Source: Actinomycetes bacterium (GTDB lineage: Bacteria; Actinomycetota; Acidimicrobiia; Acidimicrobiales; RAAP-2). Taken from it: DNA of 45,855 nt. Of the stretch, positions 7,344 to 22,862 are shown piece after piece. The notes beneath the pieces were generated by a model. It saw nothing but the letters and a program-made list of their open reading frames with translations, was not told the origin of the DNA and did no database searches. Made by a program: the position numbers and the translations under genes. The stretch lies in the NCBI GenBank assembly GCA_021791845.1, contig JAJYVT010000022.1, positions 1 through 45,855 of the forward strand, in the 5' to 3' direction. Every line of letters starts with the position of its first letter. Positions within the stretch are counted from its first letter, which is position 1.

Positions 7344-8942
7344 TCAGAGCCGCTCGCCGAAGGTGCCCGGCGTCGGCAGGTGCCACTCGCGCCCGCGCAC
7401 GGTCTCGACGTACTCGGGCCAGGGCAGGTCGACCGGAGCGTCGAAGTCCCGGTCGAGCAACGGCGGCATCCAGCCGTCACCCCCCACACCTCCGCCCGTC
7501 CGGCGGTCGAACTCCTCCTTGGCGGCGGCGAGGAAGGCCGGCTCGGTGAGGAGGTCGACCAGCGTGTTGGCCACGGTGCGGCCCGCCGTCTCCCAGGTGG
7601 GGTCGATCGCCGCCGGCAGCCCGTTCAGCGCGTTGTTGGACCAGTGCGCCCACCCCGCCGGGGCGCGCAGGAGGGGCTTCGCCGTGTACAGGCGGACGGT
7701 CGGCGCGTGCCAGGTGTACTCGACGTAGTCGTCGGACGTGAAGTTCTTCTGCCACTCGGGGAGCCCACGGCGGAACCGCCGCTCCTCCTCCTCGGGTGGG
7801 GTGAGCTCCTGCGCCTCGGCGGTGAACGGGTCGTCCATCGGCTCGACGTCGCAGGACCGCTGGATCTCGCGGGCGAACGCCCGGGCGTCGTCGCCGAAGG
7901 CGGGCGGCCCGACCAGCTCGAGGTTCCGGTAGGTGAGATCGGCCATGACGTGGTTGGTCAGCCCGACGCGGGTCTTGGTCACCCACCGGACGCTCACCAC
8001 GCAGTTCGTCACCGCCGCTGCGTGGCGGGCGTTCGCCTCGAGCACCGTGGAGAGCTGTTTCTGGATCTCGAGCTGCGGCGACCGCCAGGAGTACTGGACC
8101 TGGGCGATGCGCGGGGAGAGGTTGTCGGAGGTGGCCTGCCCCCCCACCATGAGGAACTCGTTCATGGTCCACGTCCCGGTGTGCGGGAACATGTTCTCCT
8201 TCGTGTACTTGGTCGTCGTGTACATGAGGGTCGCCGCGTCCAGCGCCCCCGGTGAGCGCGGGATCGTGTGCGACCGCCCGGGCGTGGCGAGGAGCCCCGG
8301 GTCGCCCCATGGGGCGTCGAAGCACTCGAAGGTGAAGATGCAGCTCCAGTACGAGCCGCACTGGGTGTCCCAGACCGTGGTGTTGGTCAGCATCGGGTGG
8401 TAGCTGATGGCCGCGTCGAGGTCGTCGTAGTAGCCCTTCGCCGCGTGCACCGGCTTGGACCCGCAGACCTTCTCGGCGGGCTCGCCGAAGAAGACGAGCG
8501 TGCCCTCGATGCCGTGCTCCTCCATGGCCCGCTTGGCGGCGAGCACCCCGCACAGCGCGCCCACCCCGAGGGCGGAGTGGGGATCGGTGTGCCCGGGAGC
8601 CCAGGGGTGCAGACCCTCGCGGGGTGCCCGGTGAGGCACGACCTGCTGGGAGTTCCCCGGGACCGCGTCGTACTCGGCATAGCACCCGATGACCGGCCCC
8701 TTGCTCCCCCAACGGGCGGCAAAGGCCGTCGGCATCCCGCCTGAGCCCACTTCGACGTCGAACCCCTCGCGTCGGAGCAGTTCGACGTAGGCGGCGGCGG
8801 ACCGGTACTCCCGCCAGGCGGTCTCGGCGTAGTCGAAGATCTGCAGGTGGAACGCCGACAGCTCACCGCGGGTGCGGTCGATCCAGTCCTGGGCACTGGC
8901 CTTGGCCGCCGTCATCTTGACCGGCACGTTCAACTCCGCCAC
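7344..8942 (-). CDS. M20 family amidohydrolase, AbgB-like (p-aminobenzoyl-glutamate hydrolase subunit B type)
   Basis: 532 aa from GTG 8942, chosen because a run of six G lies about 5 nt upstream; the open frame continues into the divergent promoter but that part is not protein-like. It has the AbgB layout: CYAEYDAVPG near 88-95, PGHTDPHSALG near 116-126, FFGEPAEKVCGSKP near 151-164, and YHPM at 181. The family usually has GH-x-CGH at the second metal motif; here the Cys-Gly is replaced by Asp-Pro (GHTDPHS), an unusual ligand set. It should hydrolyse an amide bond in an N-acyl amino acid or dipeptide-like substrate. It is the first gene after the LacI-regulated promoter. Confidence 0.88.
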   Translation of the reverse strand: MAELNVPVKMTAAKASAQDWIDRTRGELSAFHLQIFDYAETAWREYRSAAAYVELLRREGFDVEVGSGGMPTAFAARWGSKGPVIGCYAEYDAVPGNSQQVVPHRAPREGLHPWAPGHTDPHSALGVGALCGVLAAKRAMEEHGIEGTLVFFGEPAEKVCGSKPVHAAKGYYDDLDAAISYHPMLTNTTVWDTQCGSYWSCIFTFECFDAPWGDPGLLATPGRSHTIPRSPGALDAATLMYTTTKYTKENMFPHTGTWTMNEFLMVGGQATSDNLSPRIAQVQYSWRSPQLEIQKQLSTVLEANARHAAAVTNCVVSVRWVTKTRVGLTNHVMADLTYRNLELVGPPAFGDDARAFAREIQRSCDVEPMDDPFTAEAQELTPPEEEERRFRRGLPEWQKNFTSDDYVEYTWHAPTVRLYTAKPLLRAPAGWAHWSNNALNGLPAAIDPTWETAGRTVANTLVDLLTEPAFLAAAKEEFDRRTGGGVGGDGWMPPLLDRDFDAPVDLPWPEYVETVRGREWHLPTPGTFGERL

Positions 8943-8959
8943 GCGGGCCCCCCTTTCGG

Positions 8960-8994
8960 CAGCGTGCGCCGGAGCCCAAGGCAGGCGCACGCTG
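8960..8994 (-). other. 11-bp leader hairpin before the AbgB-like gene
   Basis: A perfect 11-bp inverted repeat (8960-8970 with 8984-8994) with a 13-nt loop lies in the predicted 5' leader, between the promoter and the G-rich ribosome site at about 8948-8953. It could affect message stability or ribosome access. There is no T-run, so it is not a typical terminator. Confidence 0.6.
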
Positions 8995-9002
8995 AAGGCG
9001 CT

Positions 9003-9031
9003 ACTGTGCCAAACGATTGGTACGACGTCAA
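9003..9031 (-). promoter_or_regulatory. promoter with embedded LacI-type operator
   Basis: On the minus strand there is a -35 TTGACG (9026-9031), a 17-bp spacer and a -10-like CACAGT (9003-9008). The dyad GTGCCAAACGATTGGTAC (9006-9023) fills the spacer and the edge of the -10. Its halves match at 7 of 9 positions around a central CpG, the hallmark of LacI/GalR-family operators. Bound repressor would block RNA polymerase directly. The likely regulator is the LacI-type protein encoded divergently at 9127; the target is the catabolic cluster to the left. Confidence 0.75.
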
Positions 9032-9126
9032 GCGACCGGACCCGGCGGCCATCCGTGCGCGCCCGCCGGACACGTAGTACCACCTCGTGCCATGAGGCAA
9101 AGGTTCAAGGACGGAAGCGTGGGCCC

Positions 9127-10200
9127 GTGGCGCAGCGGATGACGATGACGCAGCTGGCGGAGCTGGCCGGCCTGGACGTCTCCACCGTGTCACGCGCCCT
9201 CCGGGGGGACGCACGGCGGGTGTCCGCGGCGACGATCGTCCGGGTGCAGCAGCTGGCGCTCAGTGTCGGGTTCCTGCCGGACGCCAATGCGGCCAGCCTC
9301 CGAAGCCGGCGCTCGCACGTCATCGGGATGCTCGTCCCGGACCTCACCGACGTGGTGCTGGCGAACCTGTTCGAGGCCGTGAGCACCGCCGCCAACGCCG
9401 AGGGCTACCTGGCCATCGTCGCCTCCACGCGGGTGGCGCCGAGGCGCCGGCGCGCCGCGGTGCACAACTTCCTGTCACGGCGGGTCGACGGCGTCATCGT
9501 TGCGGATGCAACGCTCCAGGACGCCGCACCCGAGGGGCTCGCCGAGTCCGGCACGCCCTTCGTCATGGCCCTGCGCTCCGGCGGGTCGCACCCGAGCGTG
9601 GTGGTCGACGACGTGGTCGGCGGCCGGCTGGCCGCCGACCACCTGCTCGGCGGCGGGCACCGGTCCCTCTGCGTCGTGGGCGGCCCGCGCAACGTCAGCA
9701 CCGTGAGGGGGCGGGTCCGCGGCTTTGTCGAGGCGTGCCGCGGCGGCGGTGTCACGGTCGGGGCCACGGCCGTCCGCTACGGGGTCTTCGGGGCGGAGGG
9801 GGGCTACCGTTCGATGCGCCAGCTGCTGGAGGACGGCCAGCGTCCGAGCGCGGTGTTCGCCGTGAACGACTACAACGCGATCGGGGCTGCCCGTGCGCTC
9901 CGCGAGTACGGCGCGGTGGTGGGGCGCGACGTCGCCCTGGTCGGGTACAACGACATCTCGATCGGCCGCTTCCTCGAGACTCCGCTCACGACGATCCGGG
10001 TCGACCACGGCGCCCTCGCCCGGGAGGTCGTCCAGCTGCTCCTCCGATGCGTCAACGGTGAGGACGCCGTGTCGGTGCAGATCCAGCCCGAGCTCGTCGT
10101 CCGAGCGTCCTCGGAGGTCGACGGCAGCCGGACCGGGAGCGCCGATCAGCCGGCGCCGGCGCCGGCGGCGCGCCGGGCGAAGATCCCGAGCAACTCGTAG
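9127..10200 (+). CDS. LacI-family transcriptional regulator
   Basis: 357 aa from GTG 9127 (GGAAG 9 nt upstream); an in-frame ATG lies at 9139. The N-terminal helix-turn-helix is complete ([19 protein letters not shown]), followed by the hinge helix region and a periplasmic-binding-protein-like effector domain ([59 protein letters not shown]). It is divergent from the amidohydrolase/ABC cluster and a matching operator lies in between, so it most likely represses that cluster and responds to a pathway compound. The last ~20 residues are a Pro/Ala/Arg tail that overlaps the 3' end of the convergent agmatinase gene by 55 nt. Confidence 0.95.
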
Positions 10201-11108
10201 ACGACGTTGGCGGCGGCGAGGGCGGTGAGCTCGGCATGGTCGTAGGCAGGCGCCACCTCGACCACGTCCGCTCCCACCAGGTGCACCGGCTCGAGCCCGC
10301 GCAGGATGAGCTGCAGCTCCCGGCTCGTGAGGCCCCCAGGCTCGGGCGTCCCCGTCCCGGGGGCGTGGGCGGGATCGAGGACGTCGATGTCGATGCTGAT
10401 GTAGACGGGCCGGTCACCGACGCGCTGGCGGATGCGGGAGACGGCCGCCTCCACGCCGCCGGTCGCGACGTCCACCGTGCTGACGGTGGCGAACCCGAGC
10501 TGCGCGTCCTCGACCAGGTCGTCGGGGGTGTAGAGCGGTCCGCGGATGCCCACGTGGGCCGAGGCGTCCAATGCCAGCACGCCTTCCTCGACAGCTCGGC
10601 GGAACGGCGTCCCGTGCGTATAGGGGGCGTCGAAGTACGTGTCCCAGGTGTCGAGGTGCGCGTCAAAGTGCACCAGCGCGACCGGGCCGTGGCGTGCCGC
10701 CGTGGCACGCAGGAGCGGGAGCGCGATGGTGTGGTCGCCGCCGATCGCCACCAGGTGGTCGGCCCTCTGCAGCAGCTCGCTGGCCGTGGACTCGATCGAG
10801 GCGATGGCCTCGGCGATCGAGAAGGGGTTGGCGGCCGCGTCCCCGGCGTCGGCGACCTGGTGGACCGTCCACGGCTGGACCTCGAGGAAGGGATGGTAGG
10901 GACGGAGGAGCTTCGACCCGGCCCGGACCGCAGACGGCCCGAAGCGTGCACCTGGTCGGTACGACACACCGGCGTCGAACGGCACGCCGAGGACCGCGAC
11001 CGCCGCCCGCTCCACCTCCTCGAGGCGGGGCAGCCGGGCGAAGGTGTCGGGTCCCGCAAAGCGCGGGATACGTCGGGCGTCGGGCGGTCCGATGGGGGGT
11101 TGGCTCAT
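10146..11108 (-). CDS. agmatinase / ureohydrolase family protein
   Basis: 320 aa. It starts at ATG 11108 behind a near-perfect GGGAGGA spaced 5 nt. The binuclear Mn ligands of the arginase-agmatinase family are intact: His126 in GGDHT, Asp149/His151/Asp153 in FDAHLD, and Asp240/Asp242 in [10 protein letters not shown]. It hydrolyses a guanidino group, releasing urea; agmatine, guanidinobutyrate or a related guanidino acid are all possible and cannot be separated by eye. It is divergent from the YtcJ-like amidohydrolase gene and converges on the LacI gene with a 55-nt overlap. If agmatine is the substrate, the product putrescine links it to the polyamine-type decarboxylase at 16526-17692. Confidence 0.92.
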
Positions 11109-11269
11109 GTGCGTCCTCCCGGGTCGAGGGACGGGAATCTACTACAGTCACGCCGCCGTCAGACCCGGCGCGCGGGCGGCGCCGCGCCGCTTCGTGGCGT
11201 CGCAACGGCGATCGTGCGGGACACCGGCGTGTCCATCGCGGCGGGTTCGGATAGGAGCAAGGAGGACTG
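11109..11269. promoter_or_regulatory. divergent promoter region, agmatinase / YtcJ-like gene
   Basis: On the minus strand TAGATT (plus 11136-11141) is a plausible -10 for the agmatinase gene, with a weak TCTGAC 16 bp upstream. On the plus side, GGACAC (11219-11224) and GTGTCC (11229-11234) form a 6-bp dyad with a 4-nt centre about 35 nt before the YtcJ start, a possible operator. AAGGAGG lies 4 nt before ATG 11270. Confidence 0.45.
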
Positions 11270-12919
11270 ATGAGCGATCCTGTGGTCTTCACGGGTGGCC
11301 CGATCGAGACGTTCGACGACGGGCCCGAGCCCGAGGCGGTGCTGGTCGAGGACGGCGCGGTCCACGCGCTCGGCACCACGTCGGACTGCGAGGCTGCCGC
11401 GACGTCGAGCCCGCGGCGAGTGGACCTGGAAGGCCGTACCCTCGTCCCCGGCTTCGTGGACGCGCACATGCACCTGCTCCTGCACGGCTGCCGGCTCGAC
11501 TGGGCCGACCTGTCGGGCGCGAGGAGCATCGAGGACATCGTGCGGCTCCTGAGGGACTACGCCGATGCACACCCCGGCGTCGCTTCGATCGACGGCTACG
11601 GGTACGACCAGACCGTCCTGGCCGAGGGGCGCCACCCCACGGCGGTCGACCTCGACCGCGTCGACCGGGCCCGGCCCGTCTCCGTCCAGCACATCAGCGG
11701 GCACGGCTACGTCGTGAACTCGGCCGTGATGCGCAACCTCGGCATCTCGGCCTCGACCCCGACGCCGAGCGGCGGGCGCATCGACCGCGGGGAGGCGGGG
11801 GAACCCACCGGGCTCTTCTTCGACTCGGCGTGCGACCTGCTCACCGGAGAAGGTGGCGTCAAGATCCGGAACCACGGACCGAACTTCCACCTGCCCATGA
11901 CGCCGGAGGACCGGCGGCGGCGGTTCGACCTCGCCCAGGAGTCCTTCCTTTCGGTGGGTGTCACCACGGTCTGCGACGCCCAGGTCAGCTCCCGCGAGCT
12001 CATGGCGTACCTCCAGGCGCGTGACGAGGGCTCGCTGCTGCTCAGGACGCACATGCTCCTCCTGTCGAGCGGGCTCGAGCACCTGCGGGAGATCGGGCTG
12101 TCCTCCACGGTGGGGAACGAGCGGCTCGAGATCTCGGGTGTCAAGTTCTACGCAGACGGCTCGGTCCTGGCACGGACCGCCTTCCTGGCCGGCGAGTGCT
12201 GCGGCCACGCGCCGGGCGCCGGGCGCGGCGACGACGGCTACCTGTACCACGAGCCCCAGGAGCTGCACGACCTCCTGGTCGAGGCCCAGCGCCTCGGGCT
12301 CGCCACCGCGACCCACTCCCAGGGAAGCGTGCCCATCGGCATGGTCCTCGACGCGATCGCCGCCGGCCGAGCGCAGAGCCCGCGCCCGGGCGTCGTCCAC
12401 CGCATCGAGCACTGCGGCTTCCCCACCGACGAGCAGATCGCCCGCATGGCGCAGCTCGGGGTCGTCCCCGTGCCCCAGCCCGTGCAGCTGCACGAGCACG
12501 CCGACGAGATCGTGGAGGATCTCGGGCCGATCGGAGCCCGCTTCTACCCCTACGGCGCCTTCCAGCGTGCCGGACTGCCGGTCGTCATCAGCTCGGACGC
12601 GCCGGTGACCGACCCCAACCCCTTGCGGGCGGCGTGGGCGGCGATCACGCGGGAGACCGTCTCGGGCGCCGTCGCCGGGGAGGACTTCCGGATCGACCGC
12701 ACGACGGCGCTCGCCGGCCTGACGCGCTCGCCCGCGGCGCTGCTCGGACGCCGCGACGTGGGGGTGATCGCACCGGGAGCGGCGGCGGACCTCGTCCTGC
12801 TGGACGACAACCCGATGACGGCGGACGTCGGCGCGCTCCCGAGGATCGGCGTCACCGAGACGTGGATCGGAGGTGCGCTCGCATGGGCCGCCGACGGGAG
12901 GGCGGGGCTCACAGACTGA
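11270..12919 (+). CDS. YtcJ-like metal-dependent amidohydrolase
   Basis: 549 aa, typical for the YtcJ group of the amidohydrolase superfamily. It starts at ATG 11270 with AAGGAGG at ideal spacing. Motifs: VPGFVDAHMH with metal His66 and His68, GVKFYADGSV, ATHSQGSV, RIEHCGF, SSDAPVTDPNP, and the C-terminal beta-sandwich return GVIAPGAAADLVLLDDNP. Members hydrolyse C-N bonds in varied amides and imides, and the physiological substrate is generally unknown. The 3' end overlaps the convergent isochorismatase-like gene by 11 nt. Its position between an agmatinase and an isochorismatase-like hydrolase again points to nitrogen-compound catabolism. Confidence 0.9.
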   Translation: MSDPVVFTGGPIETFDDGPEPEAVLVEDGAVHALGTTSDCEAAATSSPRRVDLEGRTLVPGFVDAHMHLLLHGCRLDWADLSGARSIEDIVRLLRDYADAHPGVASIDGYGYDQTVLAEGRHPTAVDLDRVDRARPVSVQHISGHGYVVNSAVMRNLGISASTPTPSGGRIDRGEAGEPTGLFFDSACDLLTGEGGVKIRNHGPNFHLPMTPEDRRRRFDLAQESFLSVGVTTVCDAQVSSRELMAYLQARDEGSLLLRTHMLLLSSGLEHLREIGLSSTVGNERLEISGVKFYADGSVLARTAFLAGECCGHAPGAGRGDDGYLYHEPQELHDLLVEAQRLGLATATHSQGSVPIGMVLDAIAAGRAQSPRPGVVHRIEHCGFPTDEQIARMAQLGVVPVPQPVQLHEHADEIVEDLGPIGARFYPYGAFQRAGLPVVISSDAPVTDPNPLRAAWAAITRETVSGAVAGEDFRIDRTTALAGLTRSPAALLGRRDVGVIAPGAAADLVLLDDNPMTADVGALPRIGVTETWIGGALAWAADGRAGLTD

Positions 12920-13496
12920 AGCCGGGCGGGTCCCCGAGATCGGGGTTCGACCGGAAGAAGGCACGCGTGGCGGGCACCGTCCGGAGCCAGTCGTAGACGA
13001 GCTCCTTCGCCGAGACCAGCTCGACGCGGGCGCGCTCCATCCGTCCGAGTCCGTTCCGATGGGCGGCGCCGGGCGAGTACAGGGCGTCGTGCACGGCGAC
13101 CACGCGTTTTCCCCGCTCCTGTAGCCCCAGCGCCGAGTGGGCGACGCAGACGTCCGTCTCCAGCCCGACGAGGATCGTGGTGCCCGCCGCCGTCGCCTCG
13201 ATCGCCGCCAGGATCTCGGGATTGGCATCGCACCCGAACGTCCATTTCGGGAGCACCGGTGCGTCCTTCGGCAGCGCGCCACGGATCACCGCGGCCGTCT
13301 CCCCGTGCACCGACGCGTCCTCCTCGGTCACGACGACGGGCACACCGAGGCGGGAGGCCACGGCGACGAGCCACGCGGCGCGCCCGAACATCTCGTGCAA
13401 CGCGGCAGCGTCGACGTCCGCCCGCTCCGGCGGGTAGAACCGCTGCTGCGCGTCGATGACGAGCATCATCGAGGACTGGACGTCGATCAGCGGCAA
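12909..13496 (-). CDS. isochorismatase-like cysteine hydrolase
   Basis: 195 aa with the Asp15 (LVIDAQQRF), Lys84 (LPKWTFG) and Cys117 (GLETDVCVAHSA) triad typical of the nicotinamidase/isochorismatase-like hydrolases, all intact. The start chosen is TTG 13496 because GAGGTGGGGG lies about 6 nt upstream and the length then matches the family. An ATG at 13541 would add 15 residues without a ribosome site. It probably hydrolyses a small amide or carbamate. The 3' end overlaps the YtcJ-like gene by 11 nt. Confidence 0.88.
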   Translation of the reverse strand: MPLIDVQSSMMLVIDAQQRFYPPERADVDAAALHEMFGRAAWLVAVASRLGVPVVVTEEDASVHGETAAVIRGALPKDAPVLPKWTFGCDANPEILAAIEATAAGTTILVGLETDVCVAHSALGLQERGKRVVAVHDALYSPGAAHRNGLGRMERARVELVSAKELVYDWLRTVPATRAFFRSNPDLGDPPGFSL

Positions 13497-13642
13497 CGCG
13501 CACCCCCACCTCGTGACCTGAACCGCTCGACCCGGGACCATAGCCGTCGAAGGCGAAGCCGATCGCAGGCTCGGGCCGGCGCGCGCAGGCCGTGGGCGCG
13601 CCCGCGGCGCGCGTGCCGCCCCTGGGCGCGGGGCACCCCGGT

Positions 13643-13655: not shown

Positions 13656-15196
13656 TGCGCTCGATCGGGAGGGAGCGGGCCGTGGCGCCCGCCGACGGGG
13701 TGTGGGCGCCGGCGCGCCGGCCCCTCACGGTCGGGCTCGTGCTCGCCGTCACCGTCGTCGCCTTCGAGGCGTTGGCGGTGGCGACCGTCCTGCCGATCGT
13801 GAGCCGCGAGCTCGGGGATCTGCGGCTCTACGGCTGGGTGTTCAGCGCCTTCCTGCTGGCGAGCCTGCTCGGGATCGCCGTCGCCGGCACGATCGCCGAC
13901 CGCGGGCCCCTACAGGGCCCCATGCTCGCCGGCCTGGCGCTCTTCGCGGCCGGGCTCGTCGTCGGGGGCACGGCACCCGACATGCCGGTGCTCGTCGGCG
14001 GGCGCGCCCTCCAGGGACTGGGCGCCGGCGTGGTCCCCGCCGTGGCCTACGTCGCCATCTCCCGCGGGTACCCCGACCGGACCCGGCCGCGGATGTTCGC
14101 CGTCCTGTCGACCGCCTGGGTCGTTCCCGGCCTGATCGGGCCGGCCGCGGCCGCGGTCGTCGCCACCCAGGTCGGGTGGCGATGGGTGTTCCTCGGTCTT
14201 CTGCCGCTCGTGGGCGTGGCCGGGCTCCTCGCCGTGCTGGCGCTGCGCCACGTGCCGCCACCCGACCACGCGCGCCACGCCCACGTCCCGTACCTTCCGG
14301 TGGTCGGCGTGATCGCCGGCGCCGCGGTAGCCCTCGGCTCGGCCACCGAGGGCGACGTCCCGGTCGTCGTCGTCGGGCTGGCATGCGGCATCGCTCTCTT
14401 GGGGCTGTCGTTGCGCAGGCTCACCCCGCCCGGGACGCTACGGGCGGCGCCGGGGCTCCCTGCCACCGTCCTCACCAGGGGGCTCATGACCTTCGCCTTC
14501 TACGCCGCCGAGGCGTACGTGCCGTACGCGCTCACCACCGTCCGCCACTCGGCGCCCACCCTGGCCGCGCTCGCCCTCGTCGCCAGCACGCTCACGTGGA
14601 CGGCCGGCTCGTGGACCCAGGCCCGCTACGTGCGGCGCGTCGGCCCTCGGCGGCTCGTGCGGATCGGCGCGGCCGTCACCCTGCTCGGGCTGGCGGCGAT
14701 GGGGGCGGCACTCCTGCCGGCGGTGCCGGCGGCCGCCGGCGTGCTCGCATGGGGCGTCGCCGGGGGCGGGATGGGCCTGGCCTACGCCCCCCTCTCGGTG
14801 ACGACCCTCGACCGTGCCGCGCCGGGAGAGGCAGGCAAGGCGACGTCGGCCCTGCAGCTGTGCGACGTGCTGGGCCAGGCGCTCGGCACGGGCGGGGCCG
14901 GGGCCCTGGTGGTGGCTGCGGTCGCGACGGGCCTCGGCCACCGGGTGGGAGTGGGCCTCGCCTTCGGGCTGGGCGCGGTCCTCGGGCTCGGCGCCTTGGT
15001 GCTCGGCCGCCGGCTCCCGGCCCGGCTCCGGGGAGAGGCCCACGCCGCCGAGCTCGCAGGCGTCGCCGCAGACGGAGCCGCGGACGGAGCAGTGGCCGCG
15101 GCCGAGCGGGCAGCCGACCGCTCCGTCGAGGTTCGACCGGTGGTGTCGGGCGTCACGATGCCCGGGCGGCCACCGCCTCCCGGGCGCGGGCGATGA
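13655..15196 (+). CDS. MFS transporter (drug-efflux type)
   Basis: 513 aa from ATG 13655 (leaderless spacing), or 504 aa from GTG 13682 with a good ribosome site. About 12-14 hydrophobic segments are visible. The loop after segment 2 is GTIADRGPLQG, and VPAVAYVAISRGYPDRTRPR follows segment 4, as in drug:H+ antiporters. The start region VGLVLAVTVVAFEALAVATVLPIVSREL matches the first helix and the conserved segment of EmrB/QacA-like exporters. The substrate is unknown. The C-terminus is an Ala/Arg/Pro-rich tail of ~55 residues that overlaps the 3' end of the DUF3326 gene by 44 nt. Confidence 0.9.
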   Translation: MRSIGRERAVAPADGVWAPARRPLTVGLVLAVTVVAFEALAVATVLPIVSRELGDLRLYGWVFSAFLLASLLGIAVAGTIADRGPLQGPMLAGLALFAAGLVVGGTAPDMPVLVGGRALQGLGAGVVPAVAYVAISRGYPDRTRPRMFAVLSTAWVVPGLIGPAAAAVVATQVGWRWVFLGLLPLVGVAGLLAVLALRHVPPPDHARHAHVPYLPVVGVIAGAAVALGSATEGDVPVVVVGLACGIALLGLSLRRLTPPGTLRAAPGLPATVLTRGLMTFAFYAAEAYVPYALTTVRHSAPTLAALALVASTLTWTAGSWTQARYVRRVGPRRLVRIGAAVTLLGLAAMGAALLPAVPAAAGVLAWGVAGGGMGLAYAPLSVTTLDRAAPGEAGKATSALQLCDVLGQALGTGGAGALVVAAVATGLGHRVGVGLAFGLGAVLGLGALVLGRRLPARLRGEAHAAELAGVAADGAADGAVAAAERAADRSVEVRPVVSGVTMPGRPPPPGRGR

Positions 15197-16493
15197 CGAC
15201 CCGGGTGTCGGCGATCGGCCGTCGCACCACCGACGGGTCGATGCCGGTCCGGAGCGCCGCCAGCACCCCCACCGCCTCCCAGTAGTTGTCGACAACCAGG
15301 AGCTGCCCGCGCCGCCAGGGGAGCCGGTGCAGGTCGTTGTGGAGGATGTTGCGGTTCTCCCGCACGGCGATGACCGGGATCCCCTGCTCCAGGGCGGCCA
15401 GGGTCGGGACGCCGATGGCCCCGTCCGGGATCACGAGGGCCGAGACGTGCTCGGCCGCGAGCTCGTCCTCTGCCGGCCGCCCGGCCACCGGCACCAGCTG
15501 CGGGCTGCGCTGGAGCCCCTTGAGCACGCACACGAAGAAGGCGGTCGAGATGGCCTCCGCCGCCATCCTCGGGTCCACGACCCCGGCGTCGAGGTCCTCG
15601 ACCTCCTTCGACTCGAGCATGGGCGAGTGCGCCGTCGGCACGTCGTACATGCTCGAGACGGCGTGGGTGAAGATGGCCTCGGCGCCGCCCCAGGGGTTCA
15701 CCATCGCGCCGCGTGCCTTGTAGTAGTCGAGGTGGAAGTTGATGGGCACCTCGACCTGCGTGGACAACGCCACCGCGTCGTAGGCGCCCCGCCGGTCGTC
15801 GAGCACGTCGAGCAGCGCGTCGAGCTCGGTGACCTCACCCACGGCCCGACCCGACCCGGTGAAGCGCGACCGCAGCCGGACGCGCGGCTCCACCTCGACC
15901 ACGTCCGTGACGTCCAACCCGAACGACACGCGCGCCGCGCTGACCGAGTTGACGGCGGCGTCGACGTACTTCTGGAGGTCGTGCCGGTCGATCACCACGA
16001 GAACCCGGTTGGCCCGGACGCGCCGCAGGGCGACGGCACCGGTCATCATGCGGGCGATCACGCTGCCTTCCACGTAGAGCGCGTTGGGCGGCAGCTCCAT
16101 GATGTCCGAGGCGTTGACGACGTTGGGATGGGTCACCAAGGTGTCGACGACCGAGGCTGCGAGCGCCGCCACCGGCATGGCATCGCCAGCGTGCCCGCCG
16201 ATCTCCGAGCCGATGCCGGTCGGCACCAGCAGCACGACGTTGAACGACCGGGTGTCCTCGGCCGGCCGCTGCCGGACCTCGAAGATGGACTGCACGGCTC
16301 CCAGGTCGTGCGCGCCATCGCCCTCGATCACGCCCACCTCGCACGACCACCGGCCCCGGTCCGACGCAGCGACGGCAAAGCGGACCGGCACCTCGCCGGG
16401 GGACAGGCGCTTGCGCACCTCGCGCTCGACCTCGGCCAGCAGGTGGTCCGACCGCGGTGCGGGAATTGCCATCTCTCGTTCACTGATGTGCAT
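15153..16493 (-). CDS. DUF3326 family protein
   Basis: 446 aa. It starts at ATG 16493 with GAGGA 4 nt upstream; ATG 16472 is an alternative. I recognise the DUF3326 signature: VPTGIGSEIGGHAGDA (90-105), THPNVVN (121-127) and NALYVEGS (137-144), with later VNPWGGAEAIFTHAVS and a C-terminal AALEQGIPVIAVREN. The family is, as far as I know, biochemically uncharacterised. The Gly-rich N-terminal motif and the C-terminal half suggest a nucleotide- or dinucleotide-binding enzyme. It follows the PLP decarboxylase by 32 nt on the same strand, so the two form an operon and may act on the same metabolite. Its 3' end overlaps the convergent MFS gene by 44 nt. Confidence 0.85.
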   Translation of the reverse strand: MHISEREMAIPAPRSDHLLAEVEREVRKRLSPGEVPVRFAVAASDRGRWSCEVGVIEGDGAHDLGAVQSIFEVRQRPAEDTRSFNVVLLVPTGIGSEIGGHAGDAMPVAALAASVVDTLVTHPNVVNASDIMELPPNALYVEGSVIARMMTGAVALRRVRANRVLVVIDRHDLQKYVDAAVNSVSAARVSFGLDVTDVVEVEPRVRLRSRFTGSGRAVGEVTELDALLDVLDDRRGAYDAVALSTQVEVPINFHLDYYKARGAMVNPWGGAEAIFTHAVSSMYDVPTAHSPMLESKEVEDLDAGVVDPRMAAEAISTAFFVCVLKGLQRSPQLVPVAGRPAEDELAAEHVSALVIPDGAIGVPTLAALEQGIPVIAVRENRNILHNDLHRLPWRRGQLLVVDNYWEAVGVLAALRTGIDPSVVRRPIADTRVVIARAREAVAARAS

Positions 16494-16525
16494 CGCTTCC
16501 TCGCTTCAGGTTGTGCCTCCCCGGT

Positions 16526-17692
16526 TCAGGCCGGGAGCCCTCGGTTCAGGGTGAGAAAGTCGTCGAAGGTGAACCGCCGCTGCAGCGTCAGCTCGCCACC
16601 GGGTGCCCGGGCGTAGACGGTGGGCAGGGCGATCCCGTTGAACCACGACGCCTTGACGAGCGAGTAGGCCCCCACCTCGCCGAGCACGAGCCGGGTGCCG
16701 ACGTCGAGCGGGACCTCGAAGCAGTGCTCGCCGAAGAGGTCGCCCGCCAGGCAGCTGCCCCCGGCGAGGACGTAGCGATGGCAGCCGTACTCCCGGACCG
16801 CCCGTGGCGCCCATCGGTACTCGAAGACCTCCGGGACGTGCGCCACCGAGGTGTCGAGGACGGCGACGTCCTTGCCCCCGCTGCGGAAGACGTCGACCAC
16901 GGTGGTGACGACGGCGCCGGCCCGGTTGACGAGGGAGAGGCCCGGCTCGAAGAGCACCTCCGCCCCGTAGCCGTCCTGGAGGACGTGCACCGCCCGCTCC
17001 AGCAGCTCGTTGTCGTGGGCCTCACTGAAGAGGTACCCGCCCCCGAGGTTGACCCACCGGACCTGTCGGAGCAGGGGATCGAGCCGGTCGATCAGCACCT
17101 CGACCACCTCGAGCAGGTCGGCGAAGCGGGTCGACTCGCTGTTGTCGTGGACCAGGATCCCTTCGATGCCCTCGACCGCCGCCGGTGTGCGCGTGATCGC
17201 CGTGGCGAGGTCGTTGACCGGCACCCCGAGCTTGGAGTTGCGCGCCGCAGGGTCGTAGCGTTCGTCGGGCACGAACGACAGGCCCGGGTTCACACGGATC
17301 CCTGGGCTCGTCAGCCCGGTGACAGCGGGCAGGTGCCGGCGCACGTGGCCGAGCGAGTTGAAGCTGATCCGGTCGGAGAGACGAGCCAGCTCGGCCACGT
17401 CGGCGTCACGCAGCCCGGGCGTGGTGGTGTGCACGACGCCCGTCTCGAGGACCCTGCGGGCGAGGCGCGCCTCGAACACCGAGCTGGCGTGCAGCCCGTC
17501 GAGCAGCGGGGCCACGTGCCGAAGGCCTGCCTCGAAGCTGAATGCCTTCATGGCGAGGAGGAGACGAGCCCCGGTCGGCTCGAGCACCTTGCGCGCCGCG
17601 GTGATGTCCTCCTCCATGAACAGCTCGTCGTACACGTAGGCGGGCGTCTCGATGTCGAGGTCCGCCAGCTGCGCCATTCTCGATGTGACCAT
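16526..17692 (-). CDS. PLP-dependent decarboxylase, carboxynorspermidine decarboxylase-like
   Basis: 388 aa. ATG 17692 is chosen for GAGGAG spaced 5 nt; the frame is open for another 500 nt but that DNA belongs to the divergent GNAT gene. It is a fold-type III (alanine racemase/ODC-like) enzyme: TPAYVYDE at the start of the barrel, PLP Lys49 in LLLAMKAFSF, HDNSES, WVNLGGGYLF, LFEPG for the phosphate, and near the end GEVGAYSLVKASWFNG, as in NspC. NspC removes CO2 from carboxy(nor)spermidine, but the partner dehydrogenase (CANSDH/saccharopine-dehydrogenase-like) is not in the window, so the real substrate may be another carboxy-amine or diamino acid. It is first gene of an operon with DUF3326 and divergent from a GNAT acetyltransferase. 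Confidence 0.87.
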   Translation of the reverse strand: MVTSRMAQLADLDIETPAYVYDELFMEEDITAARKVLEPTGARLLLAMKAFSFEAGLRHVAPLLDGLHASSVFEARLARRVLETGVVHTTTPGLRDADVAELARLSDRISFNSLGHVRRHLPAVTGLTSPGIRVNPGLSFVPDERYDPAARNSKLGVPVNDLATAITRTPAAVEGIEGILVHDNSESTRFADLLEVVEVLIDRLDPLLRQVRWVNLGGGYLFSEAHDNELLERAVHVLQDGYGAEVLFEPGLSLVNRAGAVVTTVVDVFRSGGKDVAVLDTSVAHVPEVFEYRWAPRAVREYGCHRYVLAGGSCLAGDLFGEHCFEVPLDVGTRLVLGEVGAYSLVKASWFNGIALPTVYARAPGGELTLQRRFTFDDFLTLNRGLPA

Positions 17693-17827: not shown

Positions 17828-18490
17828 GTGATCGATCTCGAGTACTTCACGGAGCAGCGGCAGTCCGCCGAGGAGATCCTGGCCGTGGCCGCCGCCCACG
17901 TCGCGCGGCAGTGCGGGGTCCCAGCTGCATTCCGCCTCGTGCCGACGCTCGACGCGCCGGTGCGCGAACGGGTCCTTGCGCTCGGCAAGGAGGTGTTCGG
18001 TCCCGGTGGCGAGGTGTTCGACCGCCGGGCCCTGGACGAAGTGGCCGAGGACCCCGACGCTCTCTTCCTGGTGCTCGAGCTCGACGGCAGGATCGAAGGC
18101 GCCTGCTTCGGCTACTACGAGCAAGCGGGGGACGAGGTGGTGGACGGAACCGAGTTCTTCATCGACTCCGCCCTCGTCGCGCCCCGCTGGCAACGTCACC
18201 GCGTCGGCTGGCTGGCCGCCGCCGCCATCCTGCTCCTCGTCGCCGAATTCGGGGACGTCCGCCGCGTCGGCATCGCCGTGTGGAGCGGAGGTGACGTCGC
18301 GGGGCTCCTCTCGCTGTACCGCCGCTTCGGGTTCGCCGACGCCACCAGCCGACGGGTCCCCTATCCGTGCCTCGCGGTGACACTGCTCCCGGAGCGGGTG
18401 GACGGCTGGCGGGCACTGCTCGGCTTGTCGCCGGCGGACCCCGGTGCGCCGGCGGCGTCGGCGGACCGGCGCTCGCGCCCAGGTCCATGA
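17828..18490 (+). CDS. GNAT-family acetyltransferase
   Basis: 220 aa from GTG 17828 (GGCGGGG 5 nt upstream); GTG 17789 would add 13 residues but lacks a ribosome site. The core fits GNAT: FRLVPTLDAPVRERVLALGKEVF, the beta strands LFLVLELDGRIEGACFGYYE, then RWQRHRVGWLAAAAILLLVAEF as the acetyl-CoA-binding strand-helix, and LLSLYRRFGFADA as the C-terminal motif. It probably N-acetylates an amine; the acceptor is unknown. Its TGA overlaps the ATG of the MFS gene (ATGA), so acetylation and transport are translationally coupled. It is divergent from the polyamine-type decarboxylase. Confidence 0.8.
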   Translation: MIDLEYFTEQRQSAEEILAVAAAHVARQCGVPAAFRLVPTLDAPVRERVLALGKEVFGPGGEVFDRRALDEVAEDPDALFLVLELDGRIEGACFGYYEQAGDEVVDGTEFFIDSALVAPRWQRHRVGWLAAAAILLLVAEFGDVRRVGIAVWSGGDVAGLLSLYRRFGFADATSRRVPYPCLAVTLLPERVDGWRALLGLSPADPGAPAASADRRSRPGP

Positions 18491-20124
18491 CGCGCCGTCG
18501 GGCCGGTCTCGTCTGGCCGCGCCCCGACGAGCGTCGCCTGGTGGCGCGCTTCTACCTCGCGGTGGGGCTCTCCCAGGGCCTCTACCTCGTCTACCCCTTC
18601 GAGTTCGCCTACCTCTACCTCACGATGCGGCGACCGGAGTGGTCCGTCCTCCCGCTGATCGTCGCCAGCGGGACGACCATGCTCACCCAGCTCCCCACCG
18701 GCGTCCTCGCCGATCGCTGGGGCCGCAAGCGGTCCGTGCTCGCAGGCGGCGTCCTCACCGCCGTCACCTTCGTGGCCGTGCCCTCAACGGTGCGGCTCCC
18801 CGGCGCCTGGCAGCTGTACGGCACCTGCGCCGCCTTCGCCCTCTTCGGGCTGGGCGACACGATGATGATGGGCGCCGAGGAGGCGTGGGTGGTGGACAAC
18901 CTCCACGACGCCGGGCGCGCCGATCTGGTCGAGCCGTTCTTCGCCCGCCTGTTCGCCATCACCGGCTTCGGCAGCGCGCTGGCGAGCGGCCTCGCCCTGG
19001 CGATGCTGCTGACGATGCACGTCGACCAACGACTGCTCGACGTGCTGTGGTATGCAACCGCAGCAGGGTTCCTCGCCGCCATCGCCGTCGCCCTCACCAT
19101 CCCCGAGCACCGCCCGAGCGGCCCGGGGGGCGCGGACGGCGCGGGCGACCCTGACGGCGCGGACGGCGACGCCACCCTCTGGGCACGGACCAAGCAAGCA
19201 CTCCGTGTCCTCGTGCGCACCCGGAGCCTCCTCTTCCTCACGGTGGCGGTCGTGGTCGCCACCCTCTCGGGTGCCGGAGCCAACGAAGCCTTCCCGGTCT
19301 CGCTGCTCACCAAGGGCATGGACGCCCGGATGCTCGGCCCGCTGGGGATCGTCGACGGCGTGGTCGGCTTCGGCGCGCCTCTGGTCGGCCTGGTGCTCGC
19401 CCGCCGCCTGGGCGCCGAGCGGCTCCTCACCGCCGTCCTGGTGCTCGCCGGCGCGCTGGTCACGATGCTGTTCGGGGTCCAGGGGATCTGGGTCGTCCTC
19501 GTCCTCTACGTCCTCTTGGGGATGCTCGACCAGATGTGGGACCCCGTCGCACTGGCCCGGCTCCAGAAGGACATCCCGTCGCGGCACCGGGCGGCGCTGG
19601 GCTCGCTCATGTACGAGGCCGAGGGTCTGGCACAGCTCGCCGGCCTCGGGCTGTTCGGGCTGCTGCTCGGGAGCCACAGCCAGCAACTGCGGGACGCCAC
19701 CCCCGACCTCGTCGAGGCGTTCTCCGGCCGCACCCACCCCGCCGGCCCGGCCCCGATCGGGCTCTTCGGCCTGTCGGTGCCCGACCTCGCCATCGTCAGC
19801 TTCGTTCTCGTTGGGGTCCTGGCGGTCCCCTTCGTCCTCCTGAGCGGTCGCGGGGCACGGGGGAAGCCCCCGGGCCCTCCGGCGGGAGGGGACGCGGAGC
19901 GGAGCGCGGCAGGCCCGGTGCCGGCGGGCCCGACGCGGCCGGTGCTCGGAACGGCCGTGCCATCCCGAGCGCAGCGCGCCGGGGTGGCGGCGAGGGCGAC
20001 CCGGCGCGCCGCGTCGGCGGCGAAGGGCCGAATTGCCCTGTCGACTCGCCGCACCCCTGCACACACTCGTCTCGAGACCTGCCGGCGAAGAAAAGAGGAG
20101 GGTCCATCGTGCGGAACCACGTGA
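18487..20124 (+). CDS. MFS transporter with long unstructured C-terminal tail
   Basis: 545 aa from ATG 18487, overlapping the GNAT stop by 4 nt. About 12 hydrophobic segments, with the MFS loop LADRWGRKRSVLAGG near residue 80. Substrate unknown; coupling with an acetyltransferase suggests export or import of an amine or its acetyl form. The membrane part ends near residue 455 (VPFVLLSGRG). The last ~85-90 residues are Arg/Pro/Ala-rich with no visible fold, and the frame runs 16 nt into the next gene. This tail covers what would normally be the promoter region of the binding-protein gene, so the native stop may have been lost. Confidence 0.85.
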   Translation: MTRRRAGLVWPRPDERRLVARFYLAVGLSQGLYLVYPFEFAYLYLTMRRPEWSVLPLIVASGTTMLTQLPTGVLADRWGRKRSVLAGGVLTAVTFVAVPSTVRLPGAWQLYGTCAAFALFGLGDTMMMGAEEAWVVDNLHDAGRADLVEPFFARLFAITGFGSALASGLALAMLLTMHVDQRLLDVLWYATAAGFLAAIAVALTIPEHRPSGPGGADGAGDPDGADGDATLWARTKQALRVLVRTRSLLFLTVAVVVATLSGAGANEAFPVSLLTKGMDARMLGPLGIVDGVVGFGAPLVGLVLARRLGAERLLTAVLVLAGALVTMLFGVQGIWVVLVLYVLLGMLDQMWDPVALARLQKDIPSRHRAALGSLMYEAEGLAQLAGLGLFGLLLGSHSQQLRDATPDLVEAFSGRTHPAGPAPIGLFGLSVPDLAIVSFVLVGVLAVPFVLLSGRGARGKPPGPPAGGDAERSAAGPVPAGPTRPVLGTAVPSRAQRAGVAARATRRAASAAKGRIALSTRRTPAHTRLETCRRRKEEGPSCGTT

Positions 20125-21011
20125 AACCATTGGCCGTCGGCGCGCTGGCCACCGGCCTCGCCCTCGTGCTCGGTGCCTGCGGGGGCTCTGCGTCCACCAG
20201 CGGCCAGCACCAAGCCCGGGCCAACGCGGCAGTCGACGGTGCGGCCGCCCGCTTGGTCCCGGCCAAGTACAAGTCCGATGGGGTGCTCACCATCGCCACC
20301 GATGCCAGCTACGCCCCCAACGAGTTCTTCAGCTCCGACGGCAAGACCATCGTTGGGATGGACGTCGACCTGGGCAAGGCGGTCGTGGCGGCGATGGGCC
20401 TCGAGGCCGACGTGGTGAACGCCAGCTTCGACAGCATCCTGCCCGGACTGGCCTCGGGGAAGTACGACCTCGGGATCTCGTCGTTCACCGACACGAAGGA
20501 GCGTGAGCAGACGGTCACATTCGTGACCTACTTCACCGCCGGCACGTCCTTCTTCGTGCGGGCGTCCGAACAGGTGCACATCACCGGGTTGCACTCGCTG
20601 TGCGGCCTGAGCGTTGCCGTCGAGAAGGGCACGACGCAGGCGGTGGACGCCGCGGACCAGTCCGCCAAGTGCACGGCCGCGGGCAAGCAGCCCGTCACCG
20701 TCGAGATCTTCCCCGACCAGGGCGGCGCCAACCTCGCGCTCACCTCGGGACGGGCCGACGTCGCCATGGCCGACTCGCCGTTGGCCGACTACCAGGTGAA
20801 GCAGTCCAAGGGCACGCTGAAGCTCGTCGGCACGCCGTACGGGACCGCCCCCTACGGCATCGCCATGGCGAAGGACAGCCACCTGGCCCGGGCGGTGCTC
20901 GCCGCCCTCCGGCACGTGCAGTCGGATGGTGAGTACCACAAGATCCTCGCCAAGTGGGGTTTGACCGGTGGAGCGCTCGAGCATCCCGCCATCAATGCCG
21001 CCAAGAGCTGA
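20109..21011 (+). CDS. amino-acid ABC transporter substrate-binding lipoprotein (family 3)
   Basis: 300 aa from GTG 20109, preceded by GAGGAGGG at good spacing. The N-terminus is a lipoprotein signal: basic MRNHVKP, hydrophobic core, lipobox LGAC with Cys24, then a Gly/Ser/Thr linker. The mature domain has YKSDGVLTIATDASYAPNEF, GMDVDLGKAVVAAMGL, and FDSILPGLASGKYDLGIS, typical of family 3 binding proteins for polar amino acids. It begins a three-gene importer (binding protein, permease, ATPase) that continues into an acyl-CoA synthetase gene. The paralogue at 4921-5868 lacks the lipobox. Confidence 0.95.
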   Translation: MRNHVKPLAVGALATGLALVLGACGGSASTSGQHQARANAAVDGAAARLVPAKYKSDGVLTIATDASYAPNEFFSSDGKTIVGMDVDLGKAVVAAMGLEADVVNASFDSILPGLASGKYDLGISSFTDTKEREQTVTFVTYFTAGTSFFVRASEQVHITGLHSLCGLSVAVEKGTTQAVDAADQSAKCTAAGKQPVTVEIFPDQGGANLALTSGRADVAMADSPLADYQVKQSKGTLKLVGTPYGTAPYGIAMAKDSHLARAVLAALRHVQSDGEYHKILAKWGLTGGALEHPAINAAKS

Positions 21012-21015
21012 CCGG

Positions 21016-22101
21016 ATGCACGGCGAGCCGGCGCCGGGCCCGGGCGACCCACCCGGCAACCTGTTGGACGACCCGCCGGCGGCGGTGCCGGTGGTCGCGA
21101 CGTCCACGGCGCACGTCCCCCCGGCGCTCGGGCTCGCCCGGGCGGCCACCGATGGCCGGCGGCCGGCGCCACTCGACGCCACCCCGGTCCGCCACCCGGC
21201 CCGTTGGGCGGCGATGGCGGTGATCACCGTGCTGACGGCCATGTTCGTCCACACGCTCGTCACCAACCCGCGCTTCGGATGGAGCGTGGTGGCCGACTAC
21301 TTCACCGCCAGGACCACCCTGGACGGGCTGTGGGTGACCGTCGAGCTCACGATCGTGTCGATGGCCGTCGGCATCGGGCTGGGCACCGTCCTGGCGATCA
21401 TGCGCCTCTCGCCCAACCCGCTCGTCTCCTCCACCAGCTGGTTCTACATCTGGATCTTCCGCGGCACGCCAGTCATCGTGCAGATCCTCTTCTGGAACTT
21501 CATCGGCGCGCTCTTCCCCACCCTCTCCTTCGGCATCCCCTTCGGCCCGTCGTTCATCCAGGGCAGCGCCAACGACGTGGTGACGCCGTTCATCGCCGCC
21601 CTCCTCGGGCTCGGGCTCAACGAAGCGGCCTACATGGCCGAGATCGTGCGGGCCGGCATCGTCTCGGTCGACCACGGCCAGACGGAGGCATCGCTGTCCC
21701 TCGGCCTGTCGCGGATGCAGACCATGCGCCTGGTCGTCCTCCCCCAGGCCATGCGGATGATCGTCCCGCCCACCGGCAACGAGGTGATCTCGATGCTCAA
21801 GACCAGCTCGCTGGCGAGCGTCATCGCCGTCACCGAGCTCCTCTACTCGGTGCAGATCGTCTACTCCCGCACGTTCCAGCAGATCCCGATGCTGCTGGTG
21901 GCGGTGATCTGGTACCTGATCGTGACGACCGTCCTCAACGTCGGGCAGTACTACGTCGAGCGCCACTTCTCCCGCGGGTCGGCCGGATCGACGCCAACGG
22001 CGCGCGAGCGCCTCCGACGGGGCCTGCTGCCGACCCACGCCGACCCCTTCCGCTTCCGCCCGCCCGAGCCCGGGCTGCCCGACAACCCCAACCACCGATG
22101 A
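21016..22101 (+). CDS. polar amino-acid ABC transporter permease
   Basis: 361 aa from ATG 21016, 4 nt after the binding-protein stop. An unusual ~65-residue Pro/Ala/Asp-rich cytoplasmic N-terminus precedes the first membrane helix ([18 protein letters not shown]). Then come the standard HisM/GlnP helices and the EAA loop ([29 protein letters not shown]). The C-terminus adds ~40 residues rich in Arg and Pro. It partners with the binding protein upstream and the ATPase whose ATG overlaps its TGA (ATGA). Confidence 0.94.
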
Positions 22102-22862
22102 CCGACCCGATGGTGCGCGCCGAGCTGGTGGTCAAGTCCTTCGCCCACCACGACGTGCTGCGGGGCATCGACCTGGAGGTGACTCGCGGGAGCGTGGTCT
22201 GCGTCATCGGCCCCTCCGGCTCGGGCAAGTCGACCCTGCTGCGGTGCATCAACCGGCTGGAGCCGATCGACGCCGGGCGGCTGTGGGTCGACGGTGAGCT
22301 GATCGGCTACCGGCAACGGGGGGAGCGCCTGTACGAGCTGTCCGAGCGCGAGCTCGGCCGGCAACGGGCCAACATCGGGATGGTCTTCCAGCACCTGGAG
22401 CTGTTCCCCCACATGACGGCGCTCCAGAACATCACGCTCGCCCCGCGCCACGTGCACCGGCAGCAGAGGGCGGACGCGGAGAAGCGGGCCCGCGCCCTGC
22501 TGGAGCGGGTCGGCCTGGGCGACGCCGGCGACTCGTACCCCCGCCAGCTGTCGGGGGGCCAGCAACAGCGCGTGGCGATCGCCCGGGCGCTGGCGATGGC
22601 GCCGTCGCTCATCCTCTTCGACGAGCCGACCAGCGCCCTCGACCCCGAGCTCGTCGGCGAGGTCCTCGACGTGATGAAGGACCTGGCCAGGACGGGGATG
22701 ACCATGATCGTGGTCACCCACGAGATCGGCTTCGCCCGGGAGGTGGCCGACGAGGTCGTGTTCATGGACGGTGGCGTCGTCGTGGAGTCCGGGACGCCCG
22801 AGCAGGTCCTCATGGCGCCGCGCCAACCGAGGACCCAGGAGTTCCTCTCCAAGGTGCTCTGA
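22098..22862 (+). CDS. polar amino-acid ABC transporter ATPase
   Basis: 254 aa, ATG 22098, overlapping the permease stop by 4 nt. Complete motifs: Walker [10 protein letters not shown] (38-46), Q-loop in [12 protein letters not shown], signature LSGGQQQR, Walker [15 protein letters not shown], and switch [11 protein letters not shown]. It is closely similar to the ATPase at 3107-3901, suggesting an old duplication of the whole transporter. It energises uptake by the preceding permease and lipoprotein. Confidence 0.96.

Follow-up and report, generated by a model that had tools for sequence, protein, structure and literature searches.

DUF3326 proteins and their exchangeable decarboxylases: a candidate amine module in bacteria and phages

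What does a DUF3326 protein do beside an enzyme that resembles a decarboxylase of polyamine synthesis? The question is raised by a stretch of 45,855 nucleotides from an Actinomycetes bacterium of the order Acidimicrobiales (assembly GCA_021791845.1, contig JAJYVT010000022.1), here called the window, which spans the entire contig C152 of a genome assembly of 3.55 Mb with an estimated completeness of 90.8%. In it, the gene for an NspC-like, pyridoxal phosphate (PLP)-dependent decarboxylase, here called NspC*, is followed after a short gap by a gene for a DUF3326 protein, and matches to TIGR01047 and PF11805 at the coordinates given in Table 1 confirm this pair. A first-pass annotation made from the sequence had suggested that the two genes define an unrecognised amine route with acetylation and transport. 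We found that, in the bacterial and phage relatives sampled, a DUF3326 gene almost always has the gene for one of several unrelated decarboxylases next to it, and in this report we consider what such a partnership may mean.

The decarboxylases that adjoin DUF3326

Relatives of the window protein were collected by scanning genomes with an alignment of three DUF3326 sequences, which gave 114 confirmed members, and the best 80 of these 114 were used. They were picked on the DUF3326 sequence only, the neighbouring genes playing no part in the choice. Because the best 80 were kept, the counts given here are biased toward close relatives of the window DUF3326 and are not a census. An NspC-like gene lies directly upstream and on the same strand in 46 of these 80 loci, while in 30 of them the upstream slot is held by a gene for a SpeD-like pyruvoyl decarboxylase of about 134 residues; the two sets are disjoint, no locus of the 80 having both. 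Two of the remaining four loci, L076 and L079, start at a contig end (loci are given L numbers and genomes G numbers), and the other two are discussed below. The count that the first-pass annotation had proposed as a check on its idea comes out in its favour, with adjacency of DUF3326 and an NspC-like gene in 46 of 80 loci, and the pair is conserved across phyla. What that early picture lacked is that the NspC-like enzyme can be replaced by a SpeD-like one or, in one phage, by a relative of phosphatidylserine decarboxylase (PSD), together with the phage, PtuAB and GSP_synth contexts described below.

The PSD-like decarboxylase is found upstream of DUF3326 in phage L090 (PF02666, E 2.9e-26); its gene, at L090:7178-7900 (+), overlaps the start of DUF3326 and is preceded by a frame of 307 residues without a Pfam match. 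Given that three unrelated decarboxylase families occupy one slot, the step in question would be a decarboxylation, and DUF3326 its constant partner. From these sequence comparisons, DUF3326 appears to be the fixed component of an amine module not described before, in which the decarboxylase can be exchanged.

The exclusion between the two main partners extends to whole genomes. Our searches covered 52 genomes, namely the window's own (G000), G450 and 50 others reached through the 80 loci. A diverged NspC is present in all 27 genomes where DUF3326 is NspC-linked, and G560, the genome of L011, has a canonical NspC in addition. None of the 27 has a PF02675 match in the range of 46-58 bits that is characteristic of the DUF3326-linked SpeD, their matches scoring at least 78 bits. 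NspC was not found at E <= 1e-10 in 22 of the 23 genomes of the SpeD type, the exception being the Omnitrophota genome of L071, where a canonical NspC lies beside its dehydrogenase, and an NspC search of the genomes of L072 and L083 found none. A quick tree of DUF3326 with many weak forks was built from 113 rows, without the repeated viral loci L122 and L123 and without L076 and L079, where a contig end truncates the locus. Eight changes of the NspC/SpeD label are required on this tree, and the well-supported branches alone force 2 changes of the NspC label.

Two diverged enzymes and a missing dehydrogenase

The name carboxynorspermidine decarboxylase, to which the first-pass annotation likened the window enzyme, fits the family and the catalytic residues, but in the strict sense it is not supported. 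TIGR01047 (nspC) matches the window protein with 247.7 bits (E 1.3e-73), short of the equivalog cut-off of 409.05, and the NspC* of all 27 NspC-type genomes score between 232 and 294 bits. In a tree of 43 DUF3326-linked sequences and a control set of 9 canonical ones, 8 of them plasmid-borne (matches below 900 nucleotides, from L010, L022, L034 and L036, were left out), NspC* makes up one side of a branch with an SH-aLRT value of 100. Both sides share the PLP Lys44, His177, Gly212-214, Glu244, Cys309, Asp313 and Tyr338, numbered on the 383-residue form that begins with the ATG at 17677. At one position of the specificity helix, all 43 NspC* have Glu, while the 9 canonical sequences and a tenth, L138, have Asp. 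The window residue, Glu283, aligns with Asp276 of ClCASDC in an alignment, counted by hand, with 9eaf, which is the nearest solved relative of the window enzyme (E 3.1e-66). The structure paper PMC11866407 describes how the terminal amine of carboxyspermidine is coordinated by Asp276, a residue of the specificity helix of ClCASDC. Given that Glu replaces this amine-holding Asp, the far end of the NspC* substrate is probably different from that of carboxyspermidine, and we infer that the Glu marks another substrate.

A profile of the NspC* type run over 396 phylum genomes matched the window genome with 541.7 bits and one other, G113, with 256.5 bits; the G113 enzyme groups with the canonical ones, is 61% identical to that of L131 and has the canonical Asp, and its genome gave no DUF3326 match. 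The only PF02784 match in the window's own genome reads, by eye, as a diaminopimelate decarboxylase.

A canonical NspC would be expected to act with a dehydrogenase, CASDH, and the first-pass annotation had remarked that the window has none of the carboxyspermidine type. The observation holds well beyond the window: a four-sequence dehydrogenase profile found no match at E <= 1e-10 in the window's own genome, PF03435 gives only weak matches there (best 27.6 bits), and a strong match was found in only one of the 52 genomes, the Omnitrophota of L071 (581 bits), so that no dehydrogenase of this type accounts for the pair. Compared with the known system of NspC/CASDC and CASDH, NspC* has the same PLP fold family and catalytic residues but differs in its separate clade, its sub-cut-off score, its Glu for Asp276, its DUF3326 partner and the lack of CASDH in its own genome. 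The carboxyaminopropylagmatine (CAPA) pathway, which runs through agmatine, also differs, as there is no dehydrogenase here and the nearby agmatinase is not kept in L009 and L010. A gene row in the style of that route, with speA, a saccharopine-dehydrogenase-like gene, nspC and speB, is found on a Leisingera plasmid (L131:1-4476).

These data bear on a conventional explanation of the locus, in which the window enzyme would be a standard decarboxylase of carboxy(nor)spermidine or of the CAPA route, with its dehydrogenase elsewhere and DUF3326 as a chance neighbour. Its NspC-like sequence with intact catalytic residues, the agmatinase-family gene nearby, as in the L131 cluster, and the fact that the genome is only 90.8% complete all agree with this explanation; nevertheless, the dehydrogenase results, the conservation of the pair in 46 of 80 loci, the score below the nspC cut-off and the lack of an agmatinase on the 3′ side in L009 and L010 had already made it disfavoured, and we regard it as very improbable. 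Because NspC* forms its own clade, carries the Asp to Glu change in 43 of 43 sequences and is accompanied by a strong dehydrogenase match in only 1 of 52 genomes, it does not appear to be an ordinary carboxy(nor)spermidine decarboxylase.

The second partner, the SpeD-like protein, is a diverged relative of S-adenosylmethionine (AdoMet) decarboxylase. PF02675 matches it above the cut-off in all four copies tested, while the AdoMetDC equivalog gives 16-29 bits in the six copies tested, against a cut-off of 75.65. All 61 SpeD-like sequences retain the Ser that gives rise to the pyruvoyl group, together with the catalytic His and Cys, and 4 of them have the Pro that belongs to the AdoMetDC motif. 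At positions associated with an ornithine decarboxylase (ODC) context, which we placed ourselves by comparing the single ornithine-context reference L132 with AdoMetDC, the 61 sequences have Gln (53), Thr (56), Tyr (43) and Asn (60). The reference comes from an Omnitrophota cluster that holds a dehydrogenase, a canonical NspC and a second SpeD. SpeDC and SpeDA are a precedent for AdoMetDC relatives that decarboxylate ornithine or arginine: PMC10407285 describes SpeD relatives that evolved into such decarboxylases and gives Gln, Thr, Phe and Tyr as the residues that mark those acting on ornithine, and PMC9992855 describes phage relatives that did likewise. The DUF3326-linked SpeD resembles SpeDC in its catalytic residues and mostly in three of the four positions taken as ODC-type, the Phe position being different; the term DUF3326 does not occur in the portions of these two papers that were available.

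Unlike the AdoMetDC/spermidine synthase pathway, the window's own genome has no SpeD or SpeE: neither PF01564 (SpeE) nor PF02675 (SpeD) has a match at E <= 0.001 in this genome, in G450 or in G559. Elsewhere, a clear SpeE (E < 1e-30) is found in 22 of the 52 DUF3326 genomes, 20 of which also have a high-scoring SpeD. The possibility that DUF3326 simply replaces spermidine synthase was rejected, as clear SpeE and DUF3326 occur in the same 22 genomes, and the module thus does not merely stand in for SpeE or CASDH/CASDC.

DUF3326 and the step that it may catalyse

The window protein matches PF11805 with 298.5 bits (cut-off 25; E 7.5e-89) over nearly the whole profile (2-336 of 337), and no further domain was found in DUF3326 by Pfam. 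It consists of a small N-terminal part (residues 1 to about 80), which is missing from many phage versions, and an alpha/beta core. In an alignment of 91 rows, the kept residues are PTG, GG, PN, N137, Y140, NPWGG, AH, Y404 and E406, and H101, D104, E142 and K325 also count among the conserved ones; because residues such as PTG, GG, PN, NPWGG, Y404 and E406 are invariant, we take DUF3326 to be an enzyme, as they suggest. AlphaFold2 gave confident models for the window protein (pLDDT 94.3, pTM 0.93) and for a phage version without the N-terminal part (pLDDT 92.0), but these did not reveal a known class. A search of PDB sequences with a DUF3326 profile gave nothing below E 0.28. In Foldseek searches of the PDB, the window model had no convincing match (best E 7.5e-4 with a TM score below 0.2), partial matches to lumazine synthase being too weak (probability up to 1.00, target-length TM up to 0.56, query TM 0.23); for the phage model there was likewise no convincing match (best E 1.3e-3), and several transcarbamoylases, with TM of about 0.2, were again too weak. 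The window model had no match in BFVD at E <= 0.001.

The family is rare in the phylum. DUF3326 was found in 1 of 396 phylum genomes and in 2 of 172 family genomes, where the second member (L006, on the same contig as L008) has the same pair, 69% and 60% identical. One DUF3326 query had no match in a plasmid search, and one phage DUF3326 query had none by tblastn in 50,697 deposited phage records. As for the literature, the available part of PMC4284462 lists cyanobacterial DUF3326 with fed3 and duf650, with no decarboxylase there, and that of PMC13294368 only names a potato DUF3326 as a gene; these proteins share the Pfam family name with the window protein, and neither text, as far as it was available, links them to an amine. 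We found no paper that describes the present route or joins DUF3326 with these decarboxylases. The coupled, unrecognised amine route of the first-pass annotation is therefore partly supported, and extended, by the linkage, the exchange of decarboxylases and the missing dehydrogenase, while its substrate and steps can only be proposed.

The explanation that we prefer, and to which we give somewhat better than even chances, is a dedicated amine module in which the decarboxylase acts on a basic L-amino acid and DUF3326 then acts on the resulting amine. In the first step, the decarboxylase would remove the carboxylate from the amino acid, an ornithine-like compound being the first choice, with arginine, lysine or a near analogue as other possibilities; in the second, DUF3326, as an enzyme with an alpha/beta core, would convert the amine into a special polyamine or a conjugate. 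The first step would have been filled repeatedly by unrelated enzymes, namely NspC-like PLP enzymes, SpeD-like pyruvoyl enzymes and, once, a PSD-like enzyme, and because several unrelated enzymes fill it, it would be DUF3326 that defines the module.

Several observations weigh against this explanation. No decarboxylase adjoins DUF3326 in L072 or L083, each with 8 kb of upstream flank, and phage L095 has none within the stretch read. The sample covers DUF3326 of phages and of bacteria other than cyanobacteria, and many branches of the quick DUF3326 tree are weak. The change from Asp to Glu in NspC* by itself names no substrate. For the SpeD-like partner, the fourth ODC-diagnostic residue, Phe, differs, and the comparison depends on a single ODC-context reference whose activity is itself deduced from its context. 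Weak dehydrogenase matches exist in the genome of L044 (57 bits) and in G450, of the same family (53 bits). Finally, with SpeE present in 22 of 52 genomes, the product may well be something other than spermidine or a compound that takes its place. With regard to L072, a SpeD encoded elsewhere in that genome was considered as the partner of DUF3326 and rejected; it adjoins agmatinase-like and GSP_synth-like frames (read by eye), and for this reason it is more likely a SpeD of the arginine type.

The order of the two steps could also be the reverse. Carboxy(nor)spermidine, the substrate of the NspC ancestors, and AdoMet, that of the SpeD ancestors, both end in HOOC-CH(NH2)-CH2-CH2-X. Thus, DUF3326 might act first, as a carboxy-polyamine synthase unrelated to CASDH. 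It would make an extended amino acid that terminates in a 2-amino-4-substituted butyrate, and the decarboxylase would then trim this compound. This shared end speaks for such an order, as does the lack of a strong CASDH-type match in 51 of the 52 genomes, which leaves that job vacant. On the other hand, all 43 NspC* differ from the canonical enzymes at the residue by which the far amine of carboxyspermidine is held, the DUF3326-linked SpeD is like the ornithine-context SpeD at several positions, and the DUF3326 models have no clear match to known synthases. We therefore consider a DUF3326-first order unlikely, albeit the most serious of the alternatives, and retain the order in which decarboxylation comes first.

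Neighbouring genes, phages and implications

The features of the window around the pair are collected in Table 1; names given to neighbouring families in the other loci come from BLAST clustering, with Pfam or PADLOC verification on single copies.

Table 1. Features of the window near the DUF3326 locus
Feature	Coordinates	Strand	Family or remark
Agmatinase-family gene	10146-11108		NF002564 and TIGR01230, above cut-offs
DUF3326 protein, 446 residues	15153..16493	-	PF11805
Intergenic gap, 32 nucleotides, between decarboxylase and DUF3326	16494..16525	-	
NspC-like PLP decarboxylase (NspC*)	16526..17692	-	388 residues, or 383 from the inner ATG at 17677
GNAT acetyltransferase, divergent from the pair	17849..18490	+	PF00583; start approximate
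MFS transporter frame	18367..20124	+	PF07690; start near 18487 likely, from reading the sequence
SBP_bac_3 solute-binding protein of an amino-acid-type ABC importer	19536..21011	+	PF00497; true start inside the frame
ABC permease	20968..22101	+	Named from reading the sequence, not from a family search
Frame with an ABC ATPase in its 3′ part (about 22101-22862)	21204..22862	+	GPSGSGKST motif, named by reading

The first-pass annotation had placed acetylation and transport in the route, and the divergent GNAT and MFS genes to which it pointed are indeed present (PF00583 and PF07690, plus strand). Transport, and more weakly acetylation, find support only in the Actinomycetota relatives L008 and L009, the latter being from the same metagenome-assembled genome (MAG) as L010, which is cut by a contig start. 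In L008, genes for a GNAT, an MFS transporter, a solute-binding protein, a permease, an ATPase, the decarboxylase and DUF3326 are collinear, and in L009 the MFS and ABC genes are divergent from the pair. The window permease is 75% (L008) and 67% (L009) identical to its counterparts, the MFS transporter 60% and 57%, and the solute-binding protein and ATPase are conserved in both loci; the GNAT is 54% identical to a gene of the L008 cluster and 33% to one 3′ of DUF3326 in L011, with no match at E <= 1e-10 in L009. The best NCBIfam match of the solute-binding protein is StpK7 (229 bits, below the cut-off of 900), followed by the Lys/Arg/Orn binder TIGR01096 (125.6 bits, below the cut-off of 256). 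In the window organism, the amino-acid-type importer may feed the module, whose product may be exported by the MFS transporter and capped by the GNAT protein.

The agmatinase-family gene is also where it had been reported, but a place for it in the module was rejected: in L009 and L010, two loci of one MAG, the 8 kb on the 3′ side of the pair contain no match, and L008 is uninformative, as its contig ends there. The only agmatinase match among the loci is one of 33% in L041. The region at 7344-13541 of the window holds amidohydrolases, a LacI-type regulator and agmatinase-family and isochorismatase-family genes, with no matches in L009 or L010 at E <= 1e-10. A scan of the window revealed no tRNA and no Rfam family above the gathering score.

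Other neighbours recur in more distant loci. A GSP_synth-like gene lies near the pair in 25 of the 80 loci, directly upstream in 23 of them, often together with DUF1190-like and DUF350-like genes (Pfam on one copy each), and the available text of PMC11237479 ties a GSP_synth/DUF350/DUF1190 set to polyamine metabolism. That text describes GSP_synth operons with AdoMetDC, whereas the decarboxylase of the DUF3326 loci is NspC-like or a diverged SpeD-like one; the term DUF3326 is absent from the text available. In five Chloroflexota loci (L018, L057, L064, L068 and L078), a gene for an AMP-binding-type enzyme (PF00501 on the L068 copy) lies 3′ of DUF3326 on the same strand.

PtuA-like and PtuB-like genes lie immediately upstream of the pair, in the same orientation, in 8 of the 80 loci, among which both types of decarboxylase are represented, and in one more, L062, they follow the pair; none were seen in the studied part of the window. 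The assignment to Septu comes from PADLOC on three of these PtuA/PtuB-like proteins. All nine loci (L015, L016, L043, L044, L046, L048, L049, L058 and L062) have the appearance of an operon, which makes them candidates for an extended defence operon, and we found no paper joining Septu or PtuA with a decarboxylase. Since, according to the accessible part of PMC13096335, Septu cleaves tRNA-Tyr, one may ask whether the product is instead a nucleic-acid modification or a defence metabolite, with the amine on tRNA or DNA shielding a self target from PtuAB, or a phage genome. The PtuAB-like neighbours with both types of decarboxylase, and the carriage of the pair by phages, are consistent with this. 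Nevertheless, 71 of the 80 loci, some of them truncated by a contig end, showed no PtuAB next to the pair, 25 have a GSP_synth-like gene instead, and DUF3326 has no other Pfam domain. Such a function thus seems improbable, and we continue to favour the dedicated amine module.

The phage loci number 36 nominally and about 34 different ones, as L007 equals L115, L122 repeats L117 and L123 repeats L112, judged by matches. A SpeD-like gene is found in 33 of the 36, at most 100 nucleotides upstream of DUF3326 in 28 of these, with the order reversed in L104. Apart from L090, with its PSD-like enzyme, L091 is an exception, as its only SpeD relative is a distant one, encoded on the opposite strand 2.3 kb from DUF3326. 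Homing-endonuclease-like genes (HNH in L099:7466-8005; NUMOD3 and a weak GIY-YIG in L101:813-1595) lie between the SpeD-like gene and DUF3326 in two phages. We compared one large flanking open reading frame (ORF) per locus in 19 viral loci (two in L102), selected by size and not always the nearest, and a head, packaging or tail gene is close by in 13 of the 19. These are terminases (L115, L107 and L120), portal proteins (L097, L099, L105, L111, L119, L118 and L090) and virion or tail proteins (L096, L098 and L100). Outside these 13, L112 gave a weak tail match. Other flanks encode a DNA ligase (L102), a primase (L106) and a dehydrogenase (L109), and the flanking ORFs of L103 and L114 have no family match. 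In phages, the amine might be made late and aid DNA packaging, which would suit the position of the module beside terminase and portal genes; this is speculation that fits the context.

Taken in its widest form, the proposal is that DUF3326 is an undescribed enzyme class, without a clear match in the PDB, that makes a polyamine-type compound not seen before from decarboxylated basic amino acids, and that it forms a portable module, present in bacteria, with Septu-type operons and beside phage packaging genes, whose decarboxylase has been replaced by three unrelated families. We put this forward tentatively, as a possibility with somewhat less than even chances. Even so, the module would provide the first functional frame for DUF3326, a family of bacteria, phages and plants, and it predicts an undescribed amine. 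The names nspC and speD are probably wrong for genes that adjoin DUF3326, and, to judge from its occurrence in phages and with Septu genes, the module may yield a product of importance in the conflict between phages and their hosts or in DNA packaging.

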